DNA from: an uncultured Verrucomicrobiota bacterium
GTDB taxonomy: Bacteria > Verrucomicrobiota > Kiritimatiellia > CAIVKH01
Length of the DNA stretch: 49,755 nucleotides
Direction of reading: 5' to 3'
Assembly: GCA_937872895.1 (NCBI GenBank)
Contig: CALMUP010000032.1
Span: forward strand, 1 to 49,755
Below the pieces are notes generated by a model, which did no database searches, was not told the origin of the DNA, and saw only the letters and a program-made list of their open reading frames with translations. Numbering within the stretch: position 1 is the first letter of the stretch; the number at the start of each line of letters is the position of its first letter. Position numbers and translations under genes: made by a program. Shown here piece by piece: positions 12,297 to 25,074 of this stretch.

Positions 12297-13409
12297 ATGA
12301 ATCCCTTCCGAAACGACTCCCTCGTCTGGCGTCTCGCCACCACCACCCTGGCCTCGATCCTCCTGCTGGGTTGCACCCAGGAAACCGAGCGCCCGGTTGT
12401 CGCGCAACCGGTCCGGCTGTTCCAACTGGAAGGTGCCGGCGAAACCTCCTTCCGCAACTTCCCGGGCGAAGTGGTGGCCAGCGAAACCGCCCGCCTCTCG
12501 TTCGAGGTGCCCGGCCGGCTGATCACCTTCCCGATCCAGAACGGCCAACTCGTCAAGAAGGGCGACCTGATCGGCCAGTTGGACACCGCCGATTTCGTGG
12601 CGGCCCGCGACAGCGCCCAGGCCGCGTACGATGCCGCGCGCAGCAACTTTGACCGGAACGAACTCCTGCAGAAGCAGAATGTGATCCCGATGGCCGTGCT
12701 TGACCGGGCCCGGCAGGAACTGGACACGGCCAACGCCGCCCTGCGCACCGCGGTACGCGCCCTGGAGTCCACCCGGCTGGAGGCCCCGTTCGACGGCCGC
12801 ATCTCGGCCCGCATCGCCCGCGAGCTGCAGAACGTCCGCGCCCAGGAACAGGTGGCCATCCTCGAAGACATCTCCACGATGGAGGTCGAGATCAACATCC
12901 CCGAACGCGACATGATGCTCGGGCAGCAGGGGCTCACCGTGGCCGATGCCCGTGAAATCCTCGAGGCGTATGTGGAGTTCGCCTCCATCCCGGACCGCCG
13001 GATCGACCTCACCCTGAAAAGCTTCAGCACCCGCGCCAATCCGGTCTCCCGCACGTTCCTGGTGTCCTTCGAATTCGCCCCGCCCGCCGACCTGAACATC
13101 CTGCCCGGGATGACCGGCTCGGTGCTGGTGCGGCGCAAGGCCGGCGAGGGCGTCAATGCGGGCCGGAGTTCGCTCCACCTGGTGCCCGTGGAGGCCCTGA
13201 CCACCCACCTCGGCTCCTCCACGGTCTGGAGGCTGGACCCGGCGAACATGACGGTGTCCGCCGTGCCGGTGACCGTCACCGCCATCGAGGGCGGCGCCGC
13301 GCTGGTTCAGTCCGAAACGCTGGCCAAGGGGGATGAAATCGTCGTCTCGGGCGCACGTTTCCTGGCTGAAGGCATGCCCATCCGCCGGATGCAACCCCGC
13401 ACGCCCTGA
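12297..13409 (+). CDS. RND efflux periplasmic adaptor (membrane fusion protein), lipoprotein
   Basis: HlyD/AcrA-type adaptor of 370 aa. The N-terminus carries a lipobox (LLLGC, Cys26), so it is probably lipidated and anchored in the inner membrane. Next come the half-barrel and lipoyl regions (LSFEVPGRLITFPIQNGQLVKKG). A coiled-coil hairpin, about residues 95-160, follows (RDSAQAAYDAARSNFDR). The second lipoyl half is EAPFDGRISARIA, followed by beta-barrel and membrane-proximal domains. It would link the RND pump encoded 13 nt downstream to an outer-membrane channel. No channel gene is adjacent; a TolC-type gene is present at 23767-25074. It is divergent from the SLC13 gene across a 268-nt gap. 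Substrate is unknown. Confidence 0.93.
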   Translation: MNPFRNDSLVWRLATTTLASILLLGCTQETERPVVAQPVRLFQLEGAGETSFRNFPGEVVASETARLSFEVPGRLITFPIQNGQLVKKGDLIGQLDTADFVAARDSAQAAYDAARSNFDRNELLQKQNVIPMAVLDRARQELDTANAALRTAVRALESTRLEAPFDGRISARIARELQNVRAQEQVAILEDISTMEVEINIPERDMMLGQQGLTVADAREILEAYVEFASIPDRRIDLTLKSFSTRANPVSRTFLVSFEFAPPADLNILPGMTGSVLVRRKAGEGVNAGRSSLHLVPVEALTTHLGSSTVWRLDPANMTVSAVPVTVTAIEGGAALVQSETLAKGDEIVVSGARFLAEGMPIRRMQPRTP

Positions 13410-13422
13410 CCCTCCATTCCCC

Positions 13423-16400
13423 ATGAATCCCGCTGAAATCTCGATCCGCAACAAGACCGTCACCCTCGTCTTCACCGCCCTGATGGTGATCGGGGGGATC
13501 CTGTCCTACGTGAACATCTCACGCCTGGAGGACCCGGAATTCACCATCAAGGACGCGCTGGTCGTCACCAGCTACCCGGGCGCCTCGGCCGCCGAAGTCG
13601 CGGACGAAGTGAGCGATGTCATCGAACGGGCCCTCCAGCAGATGGGCCAGCTCGACCGGGTCACGTCCCGCTCCGAGCGGGGTCGCAGCACCGTGACCGC
13701 GACGATCAAGGCCGAATACGACAAGACCACCCTGCCGCAGGTGTGGGATGAACTGCGGCGGCGGATCGGCGATGCCCAGCGGCACCTCCCGCCCGGCGCC
13801 ACCCCCTCGCTGGTGATCGACGACTTCGGCGACGTGTTCGGTATTTTCTACGCCATCACCGGGCCGGACTACACCCAGGCCGAATTGTACGAGATCGCCA
13901 AGATGCTGCGGCAGAACCTCGTGCTGGTGGATGACGTCAACAAGGTGGAGATCTTCGCCGACCAGCAGGAAGTGATCTACGTCGAGATGGCCCGGAACCG
14001 GATGGCCCAGCTCGGCATCCAGCCGCGCGAGATCGCCGCCGCGCTCGGGGAGCAGAACCTGGTCCGCTTTTCCGGCATTGCCGATTCCGGCACGATGCGC
14101 ATGACCATCGACCCCACCGGCTCCTCGCAGAGCGTCGAGTCGCTGGGCGAGATCATCATCCGCCAGGGCCGCAGCGGTCCGGGGGAGGACAGCCCCCTGA
14201 TCTTCCTGCGGGACATCGCCACCATTACCCGCGACTACATCGATCCCCCCCACACGCTGCTGCGGTACGACGGCCAGCCCGCGGTCGGGCTCACGATCTC
14301 CACCGTCAGCGGGGGCAACGTGGTGTGGATGGGTGCGGCCGTGGAACGCCGGCTCGAGGAACTCCGGTCGCAGATCCCGCTCGGCGTCGAACTCCACCAG
14401 GTCTCCTTCCAGGCCGACAACGTCACCGAGGCGATCAACAACTTCGTCCTGAGCCTGGCCCAGGCGGTGGGCATTGTCTTCGTGATCCTGCTGATCTTCA
14501 TGGGCATGCGGAGCGGCATGATCATCGGCGGGGTGCTCTTCATCACCATCTGCGCGACCATGATCGTCATGGAATCCGTGGGCGTTTCCCTCGAGCGCAT
14601 TTCCCTCGGCGCGCTCATCATCGCCCTGGGCATGCTGGTGGACAACGCCATCGTCATCACCGAAGGCATGCTGGTGGCCATTCAGCGCGGCGTGGACCGC
14701 ATGAAGGCCGCCAAGGAGATCGTCAAGCAGACCGCGATGCCGCTGCTCGGGTCCACCGCCATCGCCATTCTCGCCTTCGGGGCGATCGGCCTCTCCCAGG
14801 ACAGCACCGGGGAATACTGCCGCTCGCTCTTCATCGTGCTGCTGGTGGCCCTGGGCATCAGCTGGATCACCGCGGTGACCATCACCCCGCTGCTCTGCTA
14901 CATGTTCATCAAGGGCAAACCCGAAGGGACTGCGGGCGCTTCCCAGGAGCCGGAAAAGGACCCCTACGGCGGCGCCCTGTTCGTCGGCTACAAGTCGTTC
15001 CTCAACTTCTGCCTTCGCCGCCGCCGGTTGACCATCGTCTCGCTGGTGATGTTGCTGGGTCTCTCGGGCTTCGCCTTCCGGTTCGTTGAACAGAGCTTCT
15101 TCCCGGACTCGACCCGGCGGCAGTTCATGATCGATGTCTGGTCGCCCGTCGGCATCCGGCTCGACCAGTCCGTCGAAAACCTGGCCGCGATCGAGGAATT
15201 TGTCCTGTCGCTCGACGGCGTCACCCACGTCGCCACCGTGGCCGGCCGCGGCGCTCCCCGCTTCCTGCTCACCTACGCCCCCGAACAGGCGGACACGGGG
15301 TATGCGCTGTTGATGGTGGACGTGGATGACCACCTCCGCATCAACGAATTGATCGCGCGGGTCCAGGAGGAAGTCACCGCCGCGTTCCCGGACAACCAGA
15401 TCATCACCCGCCGGTTCATGCTGGGTCCGGGCGCGGGCGGACGAATCCAGGCACGTTTTTCCGGCCCGAACCACGACGACTTGCGCAGCGTTGCCGTGGA
15501 GGCGATGAACATCCTCCGGCGGGACGGCGGCGCACAGGGCGTCCGCCTGGACTGCCGCGAGCAGGTCCACGTCCTGCGTCCCCAGTTCATGGAAACCGAG
15601 GCGCGCCGCGCCAGCGTCACCCGCACGGACCTGGCCCACGCACTTGAATCCACGTTCAGCGGCCGCCGCATGGGCATTTTCCGCGAGGGCGACGAGATCA
15701 TCCCGATCGTGCTGCGCAGCCCCTACCGCGAGCGCTACAACCCGGACATGATCCGCGATGTCCAGGTGTTCAGTTCGGCCACGGCCACCTTCGTGCCGAT
15801 CCGGCAGGTGGTCTCGGACTTCACGGTGGAGGTCGAGGACCCCATCATCATGCGCCGGAACCGCCAAAGCACCATCACCATGCATGCCGACCCGATCACG
15901 GGTCTGCCGAGCGCCCTGTTCGAGCGCGTGCGCGAGCAGATCGAGGCGATCCCGCTCCCTCCCGGAGTCGTGCTGGAATGGGGCGGCGAATACGAGGATT
16001 CCGGCAACGCCCAGGCCGCCGTCGCCAGCTCGCTGCCCTTCTTCCTGCTGATGATGGTCCTGATCGTGCTCACCCTGTTCAACTGCATCAAGACGACACT
16101 GATCATCTGGATCACCGTGCCCTTCGCCCTGATCGGCATCGTTGCGGGACTGCTGCTCGCCGGCCAGCCCTTCGGCTTCATGGCCCTGCTCGGCGCGTTG
16201 AGCCTTTCCGGCATGCTCATCAAGAACGGAATCGTGCTCGTCGATGAAATCCGGCTGCAGATCAACACGGGCAAAGCTCCGTGGGCCGCCGTCGTGGACG
16301 CGTCGGTCAGCCGCCTCCGCCCGGTCTCCATGGCCGCCCTGACCACCGTACTCGGCCTGATTCCCCTGCTGGTGGACGCGTTCTTCGCCGCCATGGCGGT

Positions 16401-16527
16401 TACCGTGATGGCCGGCCTGCTGTTTGCCACCGTCCTGACCCTGATCATGGTCCCGGTCCTGTACGTGGCCTTCTTCAAGATCCGGCCGGACAGCACGCCG
16501 ACCAAGGCGGAGCCGGTGGCGGTATAA
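13423..16527 (+). CDS. RND efflux transporter permease subunit (AcrB-like)
   Basis: Inner-membrane pump of 1034 aa with the twelve-helix RND plan and two large periplasmic loops. The first helix starts at about residue 10 (TLVFTALMVIGGILSY). The porter-domain sequence YPGASAAEVADEVSDVIE follows. TM4 contains the proton-relay motif GMLVDNAIVITEG at about 402-414, and the second half has GMLIKNGIVLVDEI near 929. The ATG at 13423 is chosen because MNPAEISIRNKT matches the usual cytosolic N-terminus; an in-frame ATG at 13333 would overlap the adaptor gene. With the adaptor it forms a pump energised by proton-motive force. The last 32 codons and the downstream 90 bp are duplicated at 17279-17466 on the far side of a toxin-antitoxin pair. 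Confidence 0.95.
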   Translation: MNPAEISIRNKTVTLVFTALMVIGGILSYVNISRLEDPEFTIKDALVVTSYPGASAAEVADEVSDVIERALQQMGQLDRVTSRSERGRSTVTATIKAEYDKTTLPQVWDELRRRIGDAQRHLPPGATPSLVIDDFGDVFGIFYAITGPDYTQAELYEIAKMLRQNLVLVDDVNKVEIFADQQEVIYVEMARNRMAQLGIQPREIAAALGEQNLVRFSGIADSGTMRMTIDPTGSSQSVESLGEIIIRQGRSGPGEDSPLIFLRDIATITRDYIDPPHTLLRYDGQPAVGLTISTVSGGNVVWMGAAVERRLEELRSQIPLGVELHQVSFQADNVTEAINNFVLSLAQAVGIVFVILLIFMGMRSGMIIGGVLFITICATMIVMESVGVSLERISLGALIIALGMLVDNAIVITEGMLVAIQRGVDRMKAAKEIVKQTAMPLLGSTAIAILAFGAIGLSQDSTGEYCRSLFIVLLVALGISWITAVTITPLLCYMFIKGKPEGTAGASQEPEKDPYGGALFVGYKSFLNFCLRRRRLTIVSLVMLLGLSGFAFRFVEQSFFPDSTRRQFMIDVWSPVGIRLDQSVENLAAIEEFVLSLDGVTHVATVAGRGAPRFLLTYAPEQADTGYALLMVDVDDHLRINELIARVQEEVTAAFPDNQIITRRFMLGPGAGGRIQARFSGPNHDDLRSVAVEAMNILRRDGGAQGVRLDCREQVHVLRPQFMETEARRASVTRTDLAHALESTFSGRRMGIFREGDEIIPIVLRSPYRERYNPDMIRDVQVFSSATATFVPIRQVVSDFTVEVEDPIIMRRNRQSTITMHADPITGLPSALFERVREQIEAIPLPPGVVLEWGGEYEDSGNAQAAVASSLPFFLLMMVLIVLTLFNCIKTTLIIWITVPFALIGIVAGLLLAGQPFGFMALLGALSLSGMLIKNGIVLVDEIRLQINTGKAPWAAVVDASVSRLRPVSMAALTTVLGLIPLLVDAFFAAMAVTVMAGLLFATVLTLIMVPVLYVAFFKIRPDSTPTKAEPVAV

Positions 16528-16619: not shown

Positions 16620-16656
16620 GGCGAGATGCCTGAGTCAGCCCTGACGCCCCGGATCA

Positions 16657-16685
16657 TTGACGGCAACGGCCAGCATCGGTATGGT
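16657..16685 (+). promoter_or_regulatory. Sigma-70 promoter of the toxin-antitoxin pair
   Basis: TTGACG (16657-16662), exactly 17 nt, then TATGGT (16680-16685). The expected start of transcription falls at or within a base or two of the antitoxin ATG (16692), so the mRNA would be leaderless. This agrees with the absence of a Shine-Dalgarno there. The same -10 hexamer is used in the promoter at 35378-35406. Confidence 0.55.
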
Positions 16686-16691
16686 TTCTAT

Positions 16692-16919
16692 ATGAGTAGG
16701 CTTGAAAAAGTGCGCAGCGAAGTCATGGCGTTGTCGGCCAGCGAACGCGCCAGCCTGGCACACGATCTGATTCTGAGTCTCGACGATCCCTCCGACTGCG
16801 ATCTGGGTTCGACCGAGGAGATGGAGATACAACGTCGACTCAACATGGTCCGGGAGGGCAAAGCCCCGGGACGCCCGGCGGCAGAGGTGTTCGCGGATAT
16901 CAGGGCCAAGTATTCATGA
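16692..16919 (+). CDS. Addiction-module antitoxin (Unstab_antitox / PF09720-like)
   Basis: Small protein of 75 aa matching the addiction-module component family: an N-terminal helix (SRLEKVRSEVMALSASER), the conserved ASLAHDLILSLD segment, then EEMEIQRRLNMVREGKAPGRPAAEVFADIRAKY, which resembles the toxin-binding tail of these antitoxins. The ATG at 16692 is chosen over the in-frame ATG at 16626 because the family starts with MSRLEKV-like sequences and a promoter ends right before it. Its stop overlaps the toxin start as ATGA, giving translational coupling. It should neutralise the ParE/RelE-like toxin encoded next and probably represses the operon. Confidence 0.88.
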   Translation: MSRLEKVRSEVMALSASERASLAHDLILSLDDPSDCDLGSTEEMEIQRRLNMVREGKAPGRPAAEVFADIRAKYS

Positions 16920-17212
16920 CCAACTTCACGTTCCTGCACGAAGCCGAAGTCGAGCTTTGGGCGGCCGTGACCTACTACGAGGAGAGATCGCCGGGTCTTG
17001 GACTCGATTTTCAAACCGAAATCGAGCAAGTGCTTGCAACCATAGCCGCACACCCGGAACGGTGTCCGTTACGTACCGATGGCACGCGCAGATGTCTTGC
17101 CCACCGTTTCCCTTATCTCGTTGTGTACACCTGCGAAAACGACCACATCTGGCTTCTAGCTGTCGCACACGCTAAACGCCGCCCGGGCTTTTGGCGCATG
17201 AGAGGTGGCTGA
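16916..17212 (+). CDS. ParE/RelE-family toxin
   Basis: Toxin of 98 aa with the RelE/ParE fold signature: an N-terminal strand and helix (FTFLHEAEVELWAAVTYYEERSPGLGLDF), a helix containing IEQVLATIAAHPERCP, then strands RCLAHRFPYLVVYTCENDHIWLLAVAHAKRRPGFW. The final segment is typical of ParE-like toxins (VxVxHxxRxPxFW). PF09720 antitoxins usually partner toxins of this group; whether the target is DNA gyrase or ribosomal mRNA cannot be told from sequence. It overlaps the antitoxin by 4 nt. Both genes are complete, so the module may be active. It lies between two direct repeats of the RND gene end. Confidence 0.88.
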   Translation: MTNFTFLHEAEVELWAAVTYYEERSPGLGLDFQTEIEQVLATIAAHPERCPLRTDGTRRCLAHRFPYLVVYTCENDHIWLLAVAHAKRRPGFWRMRGG

Positions 17213-18172: not shown

Positions 18173-19819
18173 TCATCCGCGGTAGGCATGCAGCATCAGG
18201 GCGAGCAGGACCACGAATGCGACAAGGATGGTTGCACTGACCTCCCAGCGCCGCAGGAACCGTTCGCTGGTCTCGATACGCGCGCGCATGCAACGGAGCA
18301 GACCGTCGAGCGCGGGGGCGAGCTGGTAGATATCCCCGGCGGGAAGTCGGGGCAACCGGTCCCCCGCCCCCAGCCAGATCCCGAGCAGAACCCCCAGCCC
18401 GATCGGCCACGCGGCCTTCCACAGCTCGGGAAGGGCGAGCGCCTTGGCCAGCGAAATGGTGCCCGGAAGGGCATGGAACCACCACGGCGCGGCGAGGGCG
18501 GACAGCGCGAGCAGCAGCCAGGCGGTCATCATGGGCATGGTGCCGCCGCCGGGACCGGGGGCGGCTTTTTTCTGGGCCAGGCGGAAGATGAAAAAGGTCA
18601 TCAGGCAGGCCGTGGCGGCGGACGAAACCGTCGCGAGCAACGCGGGTGTACCGGGGCCGAGGATGTCCTTGACCGCGACCTTGGCCAGCATCCCGCCGGT
18701 GAAGGGCAGGCCGGCCAGGCCGGGCCCGATGAGCACCGCGGGCAGGATCCACGGGGCGAACCGGCTGTTCCCGCGCACTTCCGCGATGCCGGCGGCCAGG
18801 AACGAGCCGCCTTTCACCAGGGTGTGGTGCGCGGCATAAAACGCGAGCGGCAGGGTGATCGCCACCGCGTCGGGAATGGCCCCCAGGCTCATGCCCATGC
18901 CGCCAACCGCCGCGATGAACCCCATCTGGCTGACGCTGGAATAGGCCAGCACGCTTTTCGGATTTTTCTGGGTCAGGCCGACCGCGACCCCGAAGAACGC
19001 GGTGGCGAAGCCAAGGACCATCAGCCCGTATCCGCCGGGGAGTTCGGCGTGAAACGGAACAAAGGAAATCAACCCCATCACCCCCGCGTTGAGGATCGCG
19101 CCGCTGAGCACGGCGCTGGCCGGCGCGGGCGCCACCGAGTGGGCCAGCGGCAGCCAGCCATGGCCGGGAATCAAGCCGAGCTTGAGGGCAAAGGAGGAGG
19201 CCAGCAGCACCAGGGTGGCGGTGAACCAGGGCGAATCCGGCAGGGCGGCCACCGCCTCGGCGATCTGGAAACTCCCGCCGACCGGATTGTGCACCAGCAG
19301 GACCAGTCCCATCAGGAGCAAGGCCTCGCCCAGCAGCGCGAAGCCGATGTACACCTTGCCGGCGTGCCGGGCCTCCACGGTTTCCTCGTGAATCACCAGG
19401 CCGTAGGCGGAGAGGCTCGCCATGGCGTAAAACAGGAAGAAGGCTTGGACATCGGCGGCCATGAACACCCCGAGGTTGCCGGTGAGGGTGAGCAACCAGC
19501 AGGTCACGAAACGGAGGCGGTGCGGGTTGTCCGCGAGCCGTCGCGGCAGATCCAACGCGGCCAGCGACCACAGGAACGCGGAGACGCCGAGCAGGACCGC
19601 GCCGGGAGGGGTGATGGTCAGGTTGAAGGGCATCACCGCGGAAGGGGAAAGCGCCTGGAACCGTCCACCGGAAACAAACGCCGCCACCAGCGCGGGCAGC
19701 GGAGCGGTGGCCAGCCACGGCGTGATCCGCGCGACATTGCCCGGAACGGCACACAACGCGAGCAGCACCAGCGGCCACACGACGGCCGTCACGAGCAGGG
19801 ATTGCGCGACGAATTCCAT
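18173..19819 (-). CDS. Second MrpD/NuoL-like antiporter subunit (MbsH'-like), TM5 Glu absent
   Basis: Polytopic protein of 548 aa with about 14 helices, from the proton-conducting antiporter-like family (NuoL/M/N, MrpA/MrpD, HyfB). Diagnostic segments are KLGLIPGHGWLPLAHSVAP with the TM7 lysine (K213), and LTQKNPKSVLAYSSVSQMG. The TM5 position normally Glu (FWELMSLxSY) reads FYAMASLSAY, with Ala132 in its place, and the TM8 Lys/His position is Asn244. The C-terminus adds an amphipathic stretch (ARIETSERFLRRWE) and a last helix, as in MrpA/NuoL-type long subunits. The start overlaps the preceding gene stop as TGATG. It is the last gene of the mrp-like operon. It probably replaces the missing MrpA N-terminal half in the complex, perhaps structurally or with altered proton coupling. 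Confidence 0.9.
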   Translation of the reverse strand: MEFVAQSLLVTAVVWPLVLLALCAVPGNVARITPWLATAPLPALVAAFVSGGRFQALSPSAVMPFNLTITPPGAVLLGVSAFLWSLAALDLPRRLADNPHRLRFVTCWLLTLTGNLGVFMAADVQAFFLFYAMASLSAYGLVIHEETVEARHAGKVYIGFALLGEALLLMGLVLLVHNPVGGSFQIAEAVAALPDSPWFTATLVLLASSFALKLGLIPGHGWLPLAHSVAPAPASAVLSGAILNAGVMGLISFVPFHAELPGGYGLMVLGFATAFFGVAVGLTQKNPKSVLAYSSVSQMGFIAAVGGMGMSLGAIPDAVAITLPLAFYAAHHTLVKGGSFLAAGIAEVRGNSRFAPWILPAVLIGPGLAGLPFTGGMLAKVAVKDILGPGTPALLATVSSAATACLMTFFIFRLAQKKAAPGPGGGTMPMMTAWLLLALSALAAPWWFHALPGTISLAKALALPELWKAAWPIGLGVLLGIWLGAGDRLPRLPAGDIYQLAPALDGLLRCMRARIETSERFLRRWEVSATILVAFVVLLALMLHAYRG

Positions 19820-21345
19820 CACGGCCGGGCCTCCAGGGGGGCAGGCCGTCCGATCTCCAGCGTGCGTGTCGTGACGCCCGGGAACATCCCGATCCACAGC
19901 GCGATGACGGCCAGCGCCAGCACCAGCCATTCGCGGATACGCGAGACCGGCGCGAGGGGCTGGAACGAAAGCGGGGCCGGGCTGATGCAGGACGAGAGGG
20001 CGCGGAACATGTAGGCGCCGGTCAGCAGACCACCCGCCAGGATCACCACGACCCAGGGCCATTGGGCGGACAACACCGCGGAGCTGAGCAGTTGTCCCTT
20101 GGCAATGAAGCCGCCGGTGGGCGGCACACCCACCAGCGAGAGGGCGGCAAGCACGAAGGCGATGGTGGCCACCGGCATCGTTTTCATGACCCCGCGGAGT
20201 TCGGCGAGCCGGTCATGCCCGCACGCGGCGACGATCATGCCGGCGGTCATGAACATCGAGGCCTTGGCAAATCCGTGGGAGAGGATATGGAAGACACCTC
20301 CGGAGAGGGCCCGTTCGAATCCCGCGCCCTTGGCGAGCGGGAAGATGAGAAACAGGTAGCCGATCTGGGCGGCGGTGGAGTACGCGATCAGCAATTTGAG
20401 GCGGGTCTGACGGACGGCGAGCACGCCACAGATGAGCACCGCGCCCGCGCCGAGCACGCCCACCGCCTGCGCGCCGGGGGTGCCGGTGAACGCCGGCGCC
20501 AGGTCGAACCAGATCCGGAGGATGAGGAAAAACGAGCCCTTCACCACCAGCGCGGACAGCAGGGCGCTCGCCGCCGGGGTCGCGCCGGAATGCGCGGGCG
20601 GCAGCCACAGGTGCATGGGAAACAGCGCGGTCTTGGCCATCAGTCCGACCGTCATCAGGGCGACACTCAGGGCCACCACCCAGTCCCGGTTCACCGCGGC
20701 GGCGAGCCGCGTCAGGTCCATCGTGCCGTAGTGGCTGTAGAGCAATGCGGTTCCCAGCAGGTAGAGCATCGACCCCATCAGGGCGAACAGCAGGTAGCGC
20801 AGGCCCGCCATCACGGTGCCCTTCTTGCCTTCCAGGTACACGAGCGGGATGGCCGCGAACGCGATCAGTTCCAGCGCGACGTAGAGGTTGAAGAGATCAT
20901 GGCCGAGGAAGATGGAATTCAGCGAGGCCCAGATCGCCAGCAGCATTACCCAGAACACCAGCGACGTGCGCGTCTCGGGGGCACCGGCGGGAACCCGGAA
21001 GTCCCTCGGTGCATAGAGGGCCACCGCCGCCACCAGCAGGGCGGTCGTGACCAGCATCAGCACGGATAACCCGTCCGCCCGCAGCATCAACCCGAGCGGG
21101 GGTTCCCAGCCGCCGACCCGTTCCACCAGGGCGGTGCGGGTCGTCCAGACCCGGTGGGCGATCGCCCCGGTGATGAACAGGCCGGGCACGAGGGACGCCA
21201 GCGTGATGGCGCGGCCGAAGCGGCCCCCCGTCAGGACGATGAGCAGCAGGGCCACGATGGGCAGCAGGATCGCCAGCACGAGAAGGTCCCCGCCGCCGTG
21301 GGGGCGGGAGGCGGTTTCGAGAAGCGAATGGAGCGTGTGCATCAT
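19819..21345 (-). CDS. mrpD: Mrp-type Na+/H+ antiporter subunit D
   Basis: Polytopic protein of 508 aa of the MrpD/NuoN-like family. It keeps the residues expected for proton movement: TM5 Glu159 in YVALELIAFAAIPLVYLEG, a TM7 Lys in LMAKTALFPMHLWLPPAHS, and a TM8 Lys in LLSALVVKGSFF. Typical segments also include LIAYSTAAQIGYLF and GFAKASMFMTAGMIV. In Mrp complexes MrpD is one of the two large ion-translocating subunits in the inner membrane. The start overlaps the mrpC end by 4 nt (ATGA), and its own stop overlaps the next start by one base. An alternative ATG lies one codon downstream. Confidence 0.94.
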   Translation of the reverse strand: MMHTLHSLLETASRPHGGGDLLVLAILLPIVALLLIVLTGGRFGRAITLASLVPGLFITGAIAHRVWTTRTALVERVGGWEPPLGLMLRADGLSVLMLVTTALLVAAVALYAPRDFRVPAGAPETRTSLVFWVMLLAIWASLNSIFLGHDLFNLYVALELIAFAAIPLVYLEGKKGTVMAGLRYLLFALMGSMLYLLGTALLYSHYGTMDLTRLAAAVNRDWVVALSVALMTVGLMAKTALFPMHLWLPPAHSGATPAASALLSALVVKGSFFLILRIWFDLAPAFTGTPGAQAVGVLGAGAVLICGVLAVRQTRLKLLIAYSTAAQIGYLFLIFPLAKGAGFERALSGGVFHILSHGFAKASMFMTAGMIVAACGHDRLAELRGVMKTMPVATIAFVLAALSLVGVPPTGGFIAKGQLLSSAVLSAQWPWVVVILAGGLLTGAYMFRALSSCISPAPLSFQPLAPVSRIREWLVLALAVIALWIGMFPGVTTRTLEIGRPAPLEARP

Positions 21346-21689
21346 GGGCGTGGAGGGGCGGCCGGGTCGGGCGCATCCGCGGGCGGGTCGTCCGGAAAGG
21401 TGCTTTCGCCGGTGTCGGACTTCAGTTTCAGCGCCATCGTCACCGCCAGGGCCGAGGCGGAAAAGGCGACCACGATGCCGGTGATCACGAAGGCGTGCGG
21501 GACCGGATCGCCGTCAATTCCGGCGGCTGCGCCGCGCCGCGCGATGACCCCGAACAGCAGGAAGACCCCGGTGCCGACGAGGTTGAAGGCGAGGATTTTC
21601 CGCAGCAGCATCGGATGGGTGATCACACCGAACAGACCCAGTCCGATCAGCAGCGCGGCGGCGATTCCAAACCATTCGGTGGTATTCAT
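21342..21689 (-). CDS. mrpC: Mrp-type antiporter subunit C (NuoK-like)
   Basis: Small membrane protein of 115 aa with three hydrophobic helices: TEWFGIAAALLIGLGLFGV, LLRKILAFNLVGTGVFLLFG, and PHAFVITGIVVAFSASALAV. The PHAFVITGIVV motif is typical of MrpC/NuoK proteins (PQALVLTAIVI-type). MrpC packs beside MrpD in the complex and carries part of the lateral proton path. A charged, Pro/Asp-rich tail of about 25 residues follows the last helix. The ATG at 21689 is chosen because it overlaps the upstream stop (ATGA) and begins at the first helix; longer frames upstream have no membrane character. Confidence 0.93.
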   Translation of the reverse strand: MNTTEWFGIAAALLIGLGLFGVITHPMLLRKILAFNLVGTGVFLLFGVIARRGAAAGIDGDPVPHAFVITGIVVAFSASALAVTMALKLKSDTGESTFPDDPPADAPDPAAPPRP

Positions 21690-22630
21690 GGGGTGGCGGG
21701 GCGTTCGGGGGGGCCGAGCACGAGCAGGCACAAGGTCACGCCAATCGACACGGTGGAGGCGGCTTCGATCAGGAGGATGCATGCCTTGACGAAGCCGGGT
21801 GGATAGGCGAAGAGGCCGCTCGACACGACGAGGCCCAGGAGGCCGATGCCGGCAAAGACCAAGGGACCGAGCACGATCGCCAGCCGCAAGCGCAGGCGGG
21901 AGAGGACCGGTGCATCGATCAAGCCCGCCTGCAGGGTCAGCAGCCACATGGCGGCCAGCAGGGTGCCGGCCTGGAACTTGCCGCCAGGTTCGTCCGCACC
22001 CACCCAGAACAGGTAGATGGCGATCAGCACACCGAAGGGGGGAAGCAACCGGGCGAGAAAGGCCAGGTTCCCGTCAGGCTCCGGGATCTGCACCGGCCCC
22101 GGACGTCCGCCCCACATCGCATCGGAGGTCAACCCCCAGATCGCGACCAGCGCGAGGACCAGGACCACGGTTTCCAGGAAGGTGTCCCAGGCCCGGAAGG
22201 CCAGCAGCACGCCGGTGACCGGGTTGCCCACGTGCGTGGCCGGGAGTGCCTCCATGGCCAGGGGCGCGAGCGAGGGTGCGGGATGCGGCAGGGAAAGGAC
22301 GAGGACGATCAGCGCGGCGGTCAGGCCCGCGCAGGCCAGGGCGGCCAGCCCGTGCGAGGCGGGGCCGGTGCGCCGCGTTTCGGCGGCGTGATCGGCATGG
22401 CGCAGGCGGGAGGCGGCCCGCAGGAGCAGGGCCCCGGTGATTCCGCCGCCCAGCGCGGCCTCGGTCAGGGCGACGTCGATCGAACCCAGGGCCACCCAGG
22501 CCAATCCCAGCAGCAGTCCATAGACGATGAACGCGGTGATCGCGCTGAAGGTGTCGCGGGTGAACACGGAGGTTGCAGCCACCGCAAGGAAAAGCAGGAT
22601 TAGTCCGCCATGCAGGATGGCCTCGCTCAT
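21686..22630 (-). CDS. Fusion of MrpA C-terminal (DUF4040) and MrpB domains
   Basis: Membrane protein of 314 aa. Residues ~1-75 match DUF4040, the MbhD/MrpA C-terminal part (TFSAITAFIVYGLLLGLAWVALGSIDVALTEAALG). The middle (about 90-180) resembles the MbhE-like linker with a THVGNPVTGVLLAFRAWDTFLET segment. Residues ~190-310 match MnhB/MrpB (FLARLLPPFGVLIAIYLFWVG, PGGKFQAGTLLAAMWLL, KACILLIEAASTVSIG). In Bacillus Mrp the first part is the end of MrpA and the last is MrpB; in archaeal MBH they are MbhD, MbhE and MbhF. Having all three in one chain is a domain rearrangement worth noting. It overlaps both neighbours by 4 nt. Confidence 0.88.
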   Translation of the reverse strand: MSEAILHGGLILLFLAVAATSVFTRDTFSAITAFIVYGLLLGLAWVALGSIDVALTEAALGGGITGALLLRAASRLRHADHAAETRRTGPASHGLAALACAGLTAALIVLVLSLPHPAPSLAPLAMEALPATHVGNPVTGVLLAFRAWDTFLETVVLVLALVAIWGLTSDAMWGGRPGPVQIPEPDGNLAFLARLLPPFGVLIAIYLFWVGADEPGGKFQAGTLLAAMWLLTLQAGLIDAPVLSRLRLRLAIVLGPLVFAGIGLLGLVVSSGLFAYPPGFVKACILLIEAASTVSIGVTLCLLVLGPPERPATP

Positions 22631-22923
22631 GGCTCCACCTCGCCTTGCTTGCGGACCAGCACCGCGATGAGCTGGGAAACGGTGCCCGCGGAAACCTGGA
22701 CGAGGAACCAGACCAGCACCAGCTTCAACCCGTCCAGGGGTCCGTCCACCCGGGGCAGGATCCCCAGCACGACAAGCCCGAGGCCGAGGTTGTCGGCCTT
22801 GGTGAGGGCGTGCAGGCGGCTCAAGGTGGTGGGAAGCCGGAGCATGCCGATGCTTCCGGCAAAAAAGAAGAAGACCCCGGCGAACACCATCACGACGGTG
22901 AAAAGGTCAAGGAGGGCGTTCAT
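22627..22923 (-). CDS. mrpG: Mrp-type antiporter subunit G
   Basis: Membrane protein of 98 aa with three helices and the MnhG/PhaG signature GSIGMLRLPTTLSRLHALTKADNLG (positions about 24-48). MrpG belongs to the small-subunit bundle (E, F, G) at the edge of the antiporter complex. It overlaps both mrpF (ATGA) and the DUF4040-MrpB gene (ATGA), so the whole set is translationally coupled. Length is typical. Confidence 0.94.
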   Translation of the reverse strand: MNALLDLFTVVMVFAGVFFFFAGSIGMLRLPTTLSRLHALTKADNLGLGLVVLGILPRVDGPLDGLKLVLVWFLVQVSAGTVSQLIAVLVRKQGEVEP

Positions 22924-23195
22924 TCCCTGGACTCCGCAGGCCGGGGGGGTTGGGCGCTTTTGACAAAGGCCACCGAGGCGAAGGCGGCGAGCAGCGCGAG
23001 GGTCAGGGCCACGTCGATGGCGGCGGGACCGGCGCCCGAGACGGCCAGCAGGAGCATCACGGCGATCCCTCCGGTGCCGATCAACTGCACCGCCATCATG
23101 CGATCCGCATCCCGGGAACCGCGGAAGATGCGGATCAGCCCGAGCGCCACGGCGATCACCACCAGTCCGGCCGCACTGCGGAGAACCTCATCCAT
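22920..23195 (-). CDS. mrpF: Mrp-type antiporter subunit F
   Basis: Membrane protein of 91 aa with three hydrophobic helices and the MrpF core RIFRGSRDADRMMAVQLIGT followed by AIDVALTLALLAAFASVAF. MrpF is a small subunit required for assembly of the complex. The ATG at 23195 is chosen because it begins just before the first helix and overlaps the mrpE stop by 8 nt; the longer frame to 23258 adds a basic stretch not seen in the family. Confidence 0.92.
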   Translation of the reverse strand: MDEVLRSAAGLVVIAVALGLIRIFRGSRDADRMMAVQLIGTGGIAVMLLLAVSGAGPAAIDVALTLALLAAFASVAFVKSAQPPRPAESRE

Positions 23196-23742
23196 GCTCA
23201 CCGCCCTGGTCCGTCGTGATGGCGCGCAACAGGACGGCCTCATTCGCCGCCAGGCCATCCGCGACCGGCTGGCGGGTGTCGAGCGCGTGGAAGACCGGCG
23301 ATCCGTCCGGCTCCGGCTCCACGGCGAGGGTTCCCGGGGTCAGGCTGTTGTAACTCCGGTAGAAGGCGCGGAGGGCCTCGCCGGGAATGCGGGTGCGGTG
23401 GGCGACGAATCCCGGTTGTATCCGCAGTTGCGGACGCAGGACCACCCGGGCGATGTCCCCGCCGGCCACCAGCGAATCGCGGATGAAGCAGGCACCCAGC
23501 CGGAGCAGTCCGGCCGGACGCCAGCGCAGGCCGTGTCCGGGCAGCAGCTTCGCGCTCAACCAGCCTGAAACCAGGGCCGCCGGTATTCCGACCCACCGCT
23601 CCGGGGCCTCCGCTCCGGCCACCGCGAGCCACACGACGTAGAACAGGAGGATTCTGGCCAGGAGGGACGGAAGCCGCTCGGGAATGGCGTCAGCGCGGCG
23701 CTCTCCCGTGACACCGGCTTGGGCTGGAGCGTTCTGTTTCAT
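23188..23742 (-). CDS. mrpE: Mrp-type antiporter subunit E
   Basis: Protein of 184 aa in the MnhE/MrpE family. Two helices lie near the N-terminus (LLARILLFYVVWLAVAG and WVGIPAALVSGWLSAKLLP), followed by the family segment FIRDSLVAGGDIARVVLRP. A cytoplasmic C-terminal region contains FYRSYNSLTPGTLAVE, matching the conserved NSITLTPGT-type motif, and an HALD element. MrpE is an assembly subunit. It is the first antiporter gene and starts 24 nt after the TolC-type gene stop. No Shine-Dalgarno is obvious. Confidence 0.92.
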   Translation of the reverse strand: MKQNAPAQAGVTGERRADAIPERLPSLLARILLFYVVWLAVAGAEAPERWVGIPAALVSGWLSAKLLPGHGLRWRPAGLLRLGACFIRDSLVAGGDIARVVLRPQLRIQPGFVAHRTRIPGEALRAFYRSYNSLTPGTLAVEPEPDGSPVFHALDTRQPVADGLAANEAVLLRAITTDQGGEHG

Positions 23743-23766: not shown

Positions 23767-25074
23767 TCACTCCGCATCGGGGGGGAGGAGGAGGCCGCGT
23801 GCGCGCTGGAGGTCGATCCAACCCTGTTCGCGGGTCAGCCGGGCCTGCATGGCGAGGGCTTCGGCGTTGGTGAAGTCGCGCTGGGCTTCGTTGAGGCGGA
23901 GGAGGTTTTCCTGTCCGGCGCGGAAGGCTTTCTCGACCAGGTTCCGGTTTTCGAGGCTGAGCGCCAGGGTTTCGCCGGTGATCTGTTCGGCTCTCACGGC
24001 GGCCGCGTAGTCGGTAAGCGCGGTGGCAAGGCGGGAGTAGGCCTGCAGGAGCACGGAGCGAGCACCGGCCTCGGCCTCCCGCAGGGCGGATTCGGCTTCC
24101 TCGACGCGACCGCGGCGATCGCCGCCATCCCACAGGCTCCACGCGATTTGTGCGCCGACCACCGTGCCAAAGTCGTCGCTCTCAAACCCGGGATCATCCT
24201 TGCGGACACCGGCGAGATCGCCAAAGGCGGAGATCGTGGGGCGGTAGTCCCCGCGGGCGATCCCGATCGAGGCCCGGGCGGCTTCGACCTGGGCCTGGGC
24301 CTGACGGAGGACGGGGAGGAACTCGAGGGCTTCGTTCCAGGCGCTTTCCAATTCCGGCGCGGGGAGCGCGGCGGCGTTCAGATCCACCGGCGCGGGAGGA
24401 GGAAGCGTATCCGTGGCCTCCAGCCCCAGCAGGGCGCCGAGGGCGGCCATGGCGGCTTCGAAGTCCGCCTGGGCGCTGACCGCGGCGTTTTCCGCGCCCA
24501 GCCGGCGGATGTCGAAATTCAATCGGTCCGCGCGGGATGCGTCGCCGGCGGCTTCGCGGATGCGGACATCCTCGAGTTGGCGGTTCTGGAACGCGGCATC
24601 CGCGTTCGCGATGCGGAGGTTTTCGCGGGCGAGCTGGGCGGTGGTGAAGGCGCGACCGACATTGGCCAGCAGGTCCAGGCGCGCGTCGCGCTGGCTGAAG
24701 GCGGCGGCCTCGGCGCCGAAGGTCGCGGCGTCGAGGCGGGCCCGGCGGGTGCCGCCGTCCCAGAGCAGGTAGGTGGCGCGGAGCGCGGCCCCGAACTCAT
24801 CGTCCGACCCGTCGAGGGCGGGATTGAGCTCGCGGAGGGCGTCGCTGTAGTTGATCCGTGCGCCGGAACCGGTGGCGTCGAGGCGGGGCTGGTACGCGCT
24901 GCGGGCCTGGCGGGCGCGGGCGAGGGCCTGTTCGGAGCGCGCGGCAACGATGGCTTCGGTGGGGCTCTCGGCCAGGGCGATACGCCAGGCCTGTTCCAGC
25001 GTCAGGACTTCCTGGGCCTGGATACAGGGGACGGCGAGACAACCAAGAACCATCAAGCAGGATAGTGTCTTCAT
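23767..25074 (-). CDS. TolC-family outer-membrane efflux protein
   Basis: Exported protein of 435 aa with a signal peptide (CLMVLGCLAVPCIQAQ) and the two-fold OEP repeat of TolC-like channels: EQAWRIALAESPTEAIVAAR near residue 30, and a second repeat near 250 starting EALEFLPVLRQAQAQVEAAR. Long Ala/Arg/Glu-rich helices form the periplasmic tunnel, with barrel strands such as FGTVVGAQIAWSLWDGGDRR. It would trimerise in the outer membrane and serve an RND or ABC exporter. The adaptor/RND pair at 12297-16527 lacks its own channel and is a candidate partner. It lies immediately before mrpE on the same strand with a 24-nt gap, an unusual association that may simply reflect shared transcription. 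Confidence 0.9.
   Translation of the reverse strand: MKTLSCLMVLGCLAVPCIQAQEVLTLEQAWRIALAESPTEAIVAARSEQALARARQARSAYQPRLDATGSGARINYSDALRELNPALDGSDDEFGAALRATYLLWDGGTRRARLDAATFGAEAAAFSQRDARLDLLANVGRAFTTAQLARENLRIANADAAFQNRQLEDVRIREAAGDASRADRLNFDIRRLGAENAAVSAQADFEAAMAALGALLGLEATDTLPPPAPVDLNAAALPAPELESAWNEALEFLPVLRQAQAQVEAARASIGIARGDYRPTISAFGDLAGVRKDDPGFESDDFGTVVGAQIAWSLWDGGDRRGRVEEAESALREAEAGARSVLLQAYSRLATALTDYAAAVRAEQITGETLALSLENRNLVEKAFRAGQENLLRLNEAQRDFTNAEALAMQARLTREQGWIDLQRARGLLLPPDAE

Follow-up and report, generated by a model that had tools for sequence, protein, structure and literature searches.

The pair formed by a glutamate on TM5 and a lysine on TM7 is taken to be invariant and essential in the coupling models of complex I and Mrp antiporters (PMC7419157). 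In the window, the whole 49,755-nucleotide stretch of DNA that was analyzed, the minus-strand gene at 18173–19819 encodes an antiporter-like subunit, here called A*, that keeps the lysine and carries an alanine at the glutamate site. The question that this locus raises is whether a single copy has lost its acid, and whether such a subunit could still take part in antiport.

The A* gene and its operon

The A* protein is 548 residues long and is assigned to PF00361 by its reading frame, its fold and a profile score of 97.8 bits, against a curated cut-off of 21.5. In the list of open reading frames it starts with an ATG at 19819 and is full length and stop-free; the start overlaps the mrpD stop codon by one base, and a GGAGG-like ribosome site lies upstream. 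With its frame intact, its start overlapping the mrpD stop and a long-maintained family behind it, the gene is full length, coupled and maintained, as the original prediction described it. That prediction left the strand unstated; read on the plus strand, the same coordinates do not encode the A* protein.

A* is the last gene of a minus-strand cluster with the order mrpE-F-G-[MbhD/MbhE/MnhB fusion]-C-D-A*. Upstream of it lie MrpE (23188–23742), MrpF (22920–23258) and MrpG (22627–22923), all assigned by profile; a 314-residue MbhD–MbhE–MnhB fusion (21686–22630), the equivalent of the MrpA C-terminal domain plus MrpB, in which MbhD and MnhB score over the profile cut-off and MbhE below it; MrpC (21342–21794), assigned by profile and shown by alignment to be without the His pair; and MrpD (19819–21345), assigned by its reading frame, profile and residues. 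Genes for subunits A to G are thus found in one cluster, with the A and B functions divided differently between them. The neighboring MrpD was said to keep its TM5 Glu159 and its lysines, and E159, K238, K269 and K416 are indeed read there.

The operon order is nearly constant over 80+ loci, with the general form mrpEFGB(B)CD(D')A*. In essentially all of them A* comes last among the antiporter genes, and it sits in an Mrp operon wherever the flank sufficed. The antiporter genes number three in most operons (C D D' A*), and two in an alphaproteobacterial group and in the window. A second operon of the A* type, with three antiporter genes and the TM8 lysine intact, is located on contig C9 of the same genome (L031, 9330–11087). 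The group 3 mrp cluster of Microbacterium sp. TS-1 has the order mrpFGBCDDAE (PMC5703873). Some loci of the present set share this arrangement (F G B C D D A* E), and actinobacterial ones such as L110 (G F B C D D A* E) also correspond to it; the likeness is one of gene order. The earlier description of the protein as HyfB-like does not fit, as E. coli HyfB keeps the TM5 glutamate and the genes around A* are those of an mrp operon.

A residue pattern shared across a subfamily

Re-reading and alignment bear out the residues first assigned to A*: the TM5 Glu site is Ala132 (codon at 19424–19426, minus strand, as are all codons given here), the TM8 Lys site is Asn244 (19088–19090), and the TM7 lysine is kept as Lys213 (19181–19183). 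Ala132 falls on the glutamate site in a pairwise alignment to MbhH, in multiple alignments and against E. coli NuoL (E144 to A132). The NuoL alignment also places D178 on Glu165 of TM6 (19325–19327), K229 on Lys213, H338 and K342 on His332 and Lys336 of TM11 (18812–18826), K399 on Lys380 of TM12, and R175 on Leu162. The codons from Lys380 to an extra, subfamily-specific lysine, Lys384, span 18668–18682.

A first search returned seven relatives, one of them a paralogue that the same genome carries on a different contig. In all eight sequences the TM5 Glu site is alanine or glycine, the TM7 lysine is kept, and a TM6 glutamate is present within a G-E motif that reads, for example, G-S or G-G in other antiporter subunits. 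When about 85,000 species genomes were scanned, at least 583 related stretches came up; 80 of these were retained, and more were added from 193 genomes of the class. The patterns used to fetch the loci cover residues 222–240, outside the TM5 and TM6 sites, and therefore did not select for either. A subfamily profile gives members scores of at least 286 bits and other antiporter subunits at most 186, with one apparently split member at 237 bits.

Counted per domain over readable members, the TM5 site of the subfamily is alanine in 74, threonine in nine, serine in five, glycine in four and valine in three, and it is acidic in 0/95; the TM6 glutamate is present in 96/96. The other antiporter subunits encoded at these loci, a comparison set made up mostly of MrpD and D' from the same operons, have the opposite arrangement, with a TM5 glutamate in 178/178 readable sequences and a TM6 acid in 0/181. 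About 35 further subunits from relatives follow the same rule as this comparison set, as do E. coli NuoM, NuoN, HyfB, HyfD and HyfF; NuoL alone carries both acids. Two apparent subfamily members with a TM5 glutamate proved to be two-domain reading frames in which D' is fused to A*, and the rule holds once these are split by domain.

Frames that join D' and A* are found in Pseudoalteromonas and Salinimonas (L073, 6414–9644; L116, 6306–9587), the Salinimonas A* being apparently split, and this sharing of a frame suggests that D' and A* are adjacent in the complex. Two tandem A* genes occur in a Thiobacillus MAG (L075, 6144–9581).

The remaining charged residues of the subfamily are strongly conserved, including the TM7 lysine (97/97), the TM11 histidine (96/96) and the TM12 lysine equivalent to K380 (96/96). 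Over 93 members only 13 columns are invariant, and E165, K213, H332, K336 and K380 are among them. The second TM12 lysine, K384, is present in 91/96 members as compared with 4% elsewhere. The subfamily extends over Pseudomonadota, Myxococcota, Actinomycetota, Verrucomicrobiota and other groups, and in the tree it is set apart by a branch that has 100% SH-aLRT, so that a single origin of the pattern suffices.

The claim that this particular copy has lost its TM5 glutamate is contradicted by these counts, as the residue is missing from the whole subfamily (95/95), a kind of evidence that the original prediction itself listed as refuting it. There has been no individual loss; the residue pattern is a trait of a broad, well-supported subfamily. 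The acid appears to have moved from TM5 to TM6 rather than to have been lost, where "moved" describes the outcome and not a reconstructed evolutionary path. The original prediction also named another acidic residue at the TM5 site as evidence against itself, and what is found comes near to this: Glu165 lies on the adjacent TM6, at the position of NuoL Asp178. A TM5-to-TM6 swap in Mrp is not reported in the literature covered, which did not include subscription papers, so it may have been described before.

The TM8 asparagine is a separate, sporadic change and not a subfamily trait, as judged from the alignment, in which 93/97 members have the TM8 lysine and 4/97 are without it. The same column holds threonine in E. 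coli NuoL and asparagine in HyfF and DabB, so Asn244 is compatible with function.

The TM6 glutamate and its precedents

An AF2 model of A* built from 93 sequences, which replaced a poor earlier model built from eight, has a mean pLDDT of 92.5 and retains the broken TM7 and TM12. Its best Foldseek matches are MrpA and NuoL/ND5 chains, and VIA-align superimposes it on NuoL with a Z of 41.0 and an rmsd of 3.0 over 477 aligned residues. An inverted-repeat alignment of TM4–8 with TM9–13, meant to set E165 opposite His332, gave no sequence signal.

In NuoL, K229 and D178 have been described as an ion pair (PMC9271201), and Asp178, a residue of the central hydrophilic axis, has a pKa inversely correlated with the pKa of Glu144 (PMC13358369). 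As this published partner of the TM7 lysine aligns with Glu165, the TM7 lysine of A* most likely keeps an acid partner, predicted here to come from TM6. NuoL of complex I further resembles the window A* in having a TM6 acid, a TM7 lysine, the TM11 His/Lys and the TM12 lysine, and in having no TM8 lysine. However, NuoL also has Glu144 on TM5 and Arg175, where the window A* has leucine, and the analogy is therefore incomplete.

A functional precedent for an antiporter subunit without the TM5 glutamate and with a TM6 acid is provided by DabB2, which conducts protons in the DAB2 inorganic-carbon system. Like A*, DabB2 has a neutral TM5 residue, in this case isoleucine, and keeps the TM6 acid and TM7 lysine (Asp185 and Lys235); alanine variants of the ion pair lower growth yield by 30–60%, and a glutamate placed at the TM5 site halves it (PMC13144422). 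Among the DabB-like neighbors of the DabA genes that we fetched, 5/7 combine isoleucine, methionine or valine on TM5 with a TM6 aspartate, and the DabB sequences examined share the TM8 asparagine of the window A*. DabB2 differs from A* in having a DabA partner, in its TM6 acid being aspartate, and in the arginine three residues before that acid. DabB and the A* subfamily form separate 100% groups in a quick tree, but a clade that unites the subfamily with both NuoL and DabB is not rejected (AU p 0.67).

The N-terminal domain of MrpA from Bacillus and Anoxybacillus is like A* in being the distal subunit of an Mrp complex, with a NuoL-like fold and a helix HL-like C-terminus. Canonical MrpA keeps Glu140 on TM5, which is essential for antiport, and carries the MbhD and MbhE domains in the same chain, whereas A* has no TM5 glutamate to pair with the TM7 lysine, and MbhD and MbhE are found on the separate gene at 21686–22630. 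In Bacillus Mrp, MrpA-E140A assembles and antiport is absent (PMC5703873), so the TM6 glutamate would have to truly substitute in the A* subfamily.

A proposed relocation of the acid and its alternatives

From the observed residues, their family-wide exclusivity, the alignment with NuoL Asp178, the fold of the protein and its operon, our preferred reading is that the acidic partner in the central Lys/Glu pair has been relocated from TM5 to TM6 in the distal subunit of an Mrp-type complex, to which we give a probability of about 0.7. A* would be the distal antiporter-like subunit of an mrpEFGBCD-A* complex, corresponding to the N-terminal domain of MrpA, with Lys213 pairing with Glu165 in place of a TM5 glutamate. 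We infer the proximity of these two residues from the NuoL alignment, and the ion pair, proton conduction and altered coupling in like manner. Protons would still use the Lys/His axis at the center of the subunit (Lys213, His332/Lys336, Lys380), and the Lys213–Glu165 pair would still gate it, with weaker or different coupling to MrpD. In Mrp, the MrpA GluTM5 lies about 7 Å from the MrpD LysTM12, a proposed coupling point (PMC7419157). With the acid off the helix reported to face MrpD LysTM12, the cross-talk between A* and MrpD should be rewired, and this plausibly favors the "open" state of the complex I and DabB work.

The operon may depart from Mrp on its cation side as well. In Anoxybacillus Mrp, a His pair of MrpC coordinates cations (PMC7419157). 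The window MrpC has threonine and phenylalanine at the His37 and His40 sites, and the first site, whose column was confirmed on a canonical MrpC, is histidine in 1/64 relatives and not in the other 63/64. In the canonical mrp cluster of a same-genus genome, MrpC reads S-H-G-A-N. The missing His pair suggests that the cation side of the A*-type machine is altered too, and that its coupling axis is unlike that of textbook Mrp. A wider version of our reading can be put forward tentatively, at rather less than even odds: that the whole axis is rewired in a widespread, uncharacterized class of Mrp-type systems, with the TM6 glutamate, the extra TM12 lysine, a His-less MrpC, in most cases three antiporter subunits, the number found in complex I, and an ion specificity or stoichiometry other than that of textbook Mrp.

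A non-conducting role as a structural cap is unlikely for the distal subunit; under this reading its proton path went with the TM5 glutamate and its TM6 glutamate only stabilizes the fold. The essential role of the TM5 glutamate in antiport by Bacillus MrpA (PMC5703873) would be in keeping with such a cap, as would the missing TM8 lysine of the window copy; however, the TM7 lysine, TM11 histidine and lysine, and TM12 lysine are invariant in 93 members, the second TM12 lysine is family-specific, and DabB2 is functional with the same TM5/TM6 pattern (PMC13144422). The original prediction of a structural or differently coupled subunit, rather than a decaying one, survives best in its "differently coupled" form: a purely structural role is improbable because E165, K213, H332, K336 and K380 are invariant, and there are no signs of decay beyond a few substitutions.

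We consider it quite improbable that A* works in another complex or on another cargo, in the way that DabB works with DabA, in place of cation/proton antiport. The TM5/TM6/TM8 pattern shared with DabB and the MrpC of A*-type operons, without its conserved His site, are compatible with that possibility, but A* lies within Mrp operons wherever the flank sufficed, and no DabA (PF10070) was found in this genome, which is 95% complete. Least probable of all is that the window copy, redundant with the paralogous three-antiporter operon on contig C9, is starting to decay through residues such as the TM8 lysine, since its 5/59 departures from columns conserved in at least 93% of the family (N244 and four others, against a family median of one) are equaled in other members, Asn or Thr at the TM8 site also occurs in DabB, HyfF and NuoL, and the frame is full length and stop-free with a coupled start and every other axis residue intact.

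The residue pattern of A* is best regarded as real and not as decay, with antiport activity as a prediction from sequence, and the use of the TM5 glutamate as a criterion for pumping could misclassify the subfamily as dead. Nature here supplies, in a large family that keeps the TM7, TM11 and TM12 charges while its acid is on a different helix, a test of whether the position of the charge matters or its mere presence.

Both A* and MrpD of the window group mainly with Pseudomonadota in the tree. A misbinned contig was considered and rejected: a further protein encoded on the contig shares 74% identity with one in a same-genus genome, and the tetranucleotide correlation with contig C9 is 0.97. 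With the contig genuine, the mrp operon was probably acquired.

The operon is flanked by genes for a membrane-fusion protein and an RND permease (12297–16527, plus strand) and by a TolC-like gene (23767–25074, minus strand), the latter directly upstream of mrpE. RND genes (31–37% identical) are likewise neighbors of the operon in eight loci of the two-antiporter alphaproteobacterial group, which suggests a recurrent RND–Mrp neighborhood. Two small overlapping genes at 16626–17212 on the plus strand are, by eye, a candidate ParE/RelE-type toxin–antitoxin pair.
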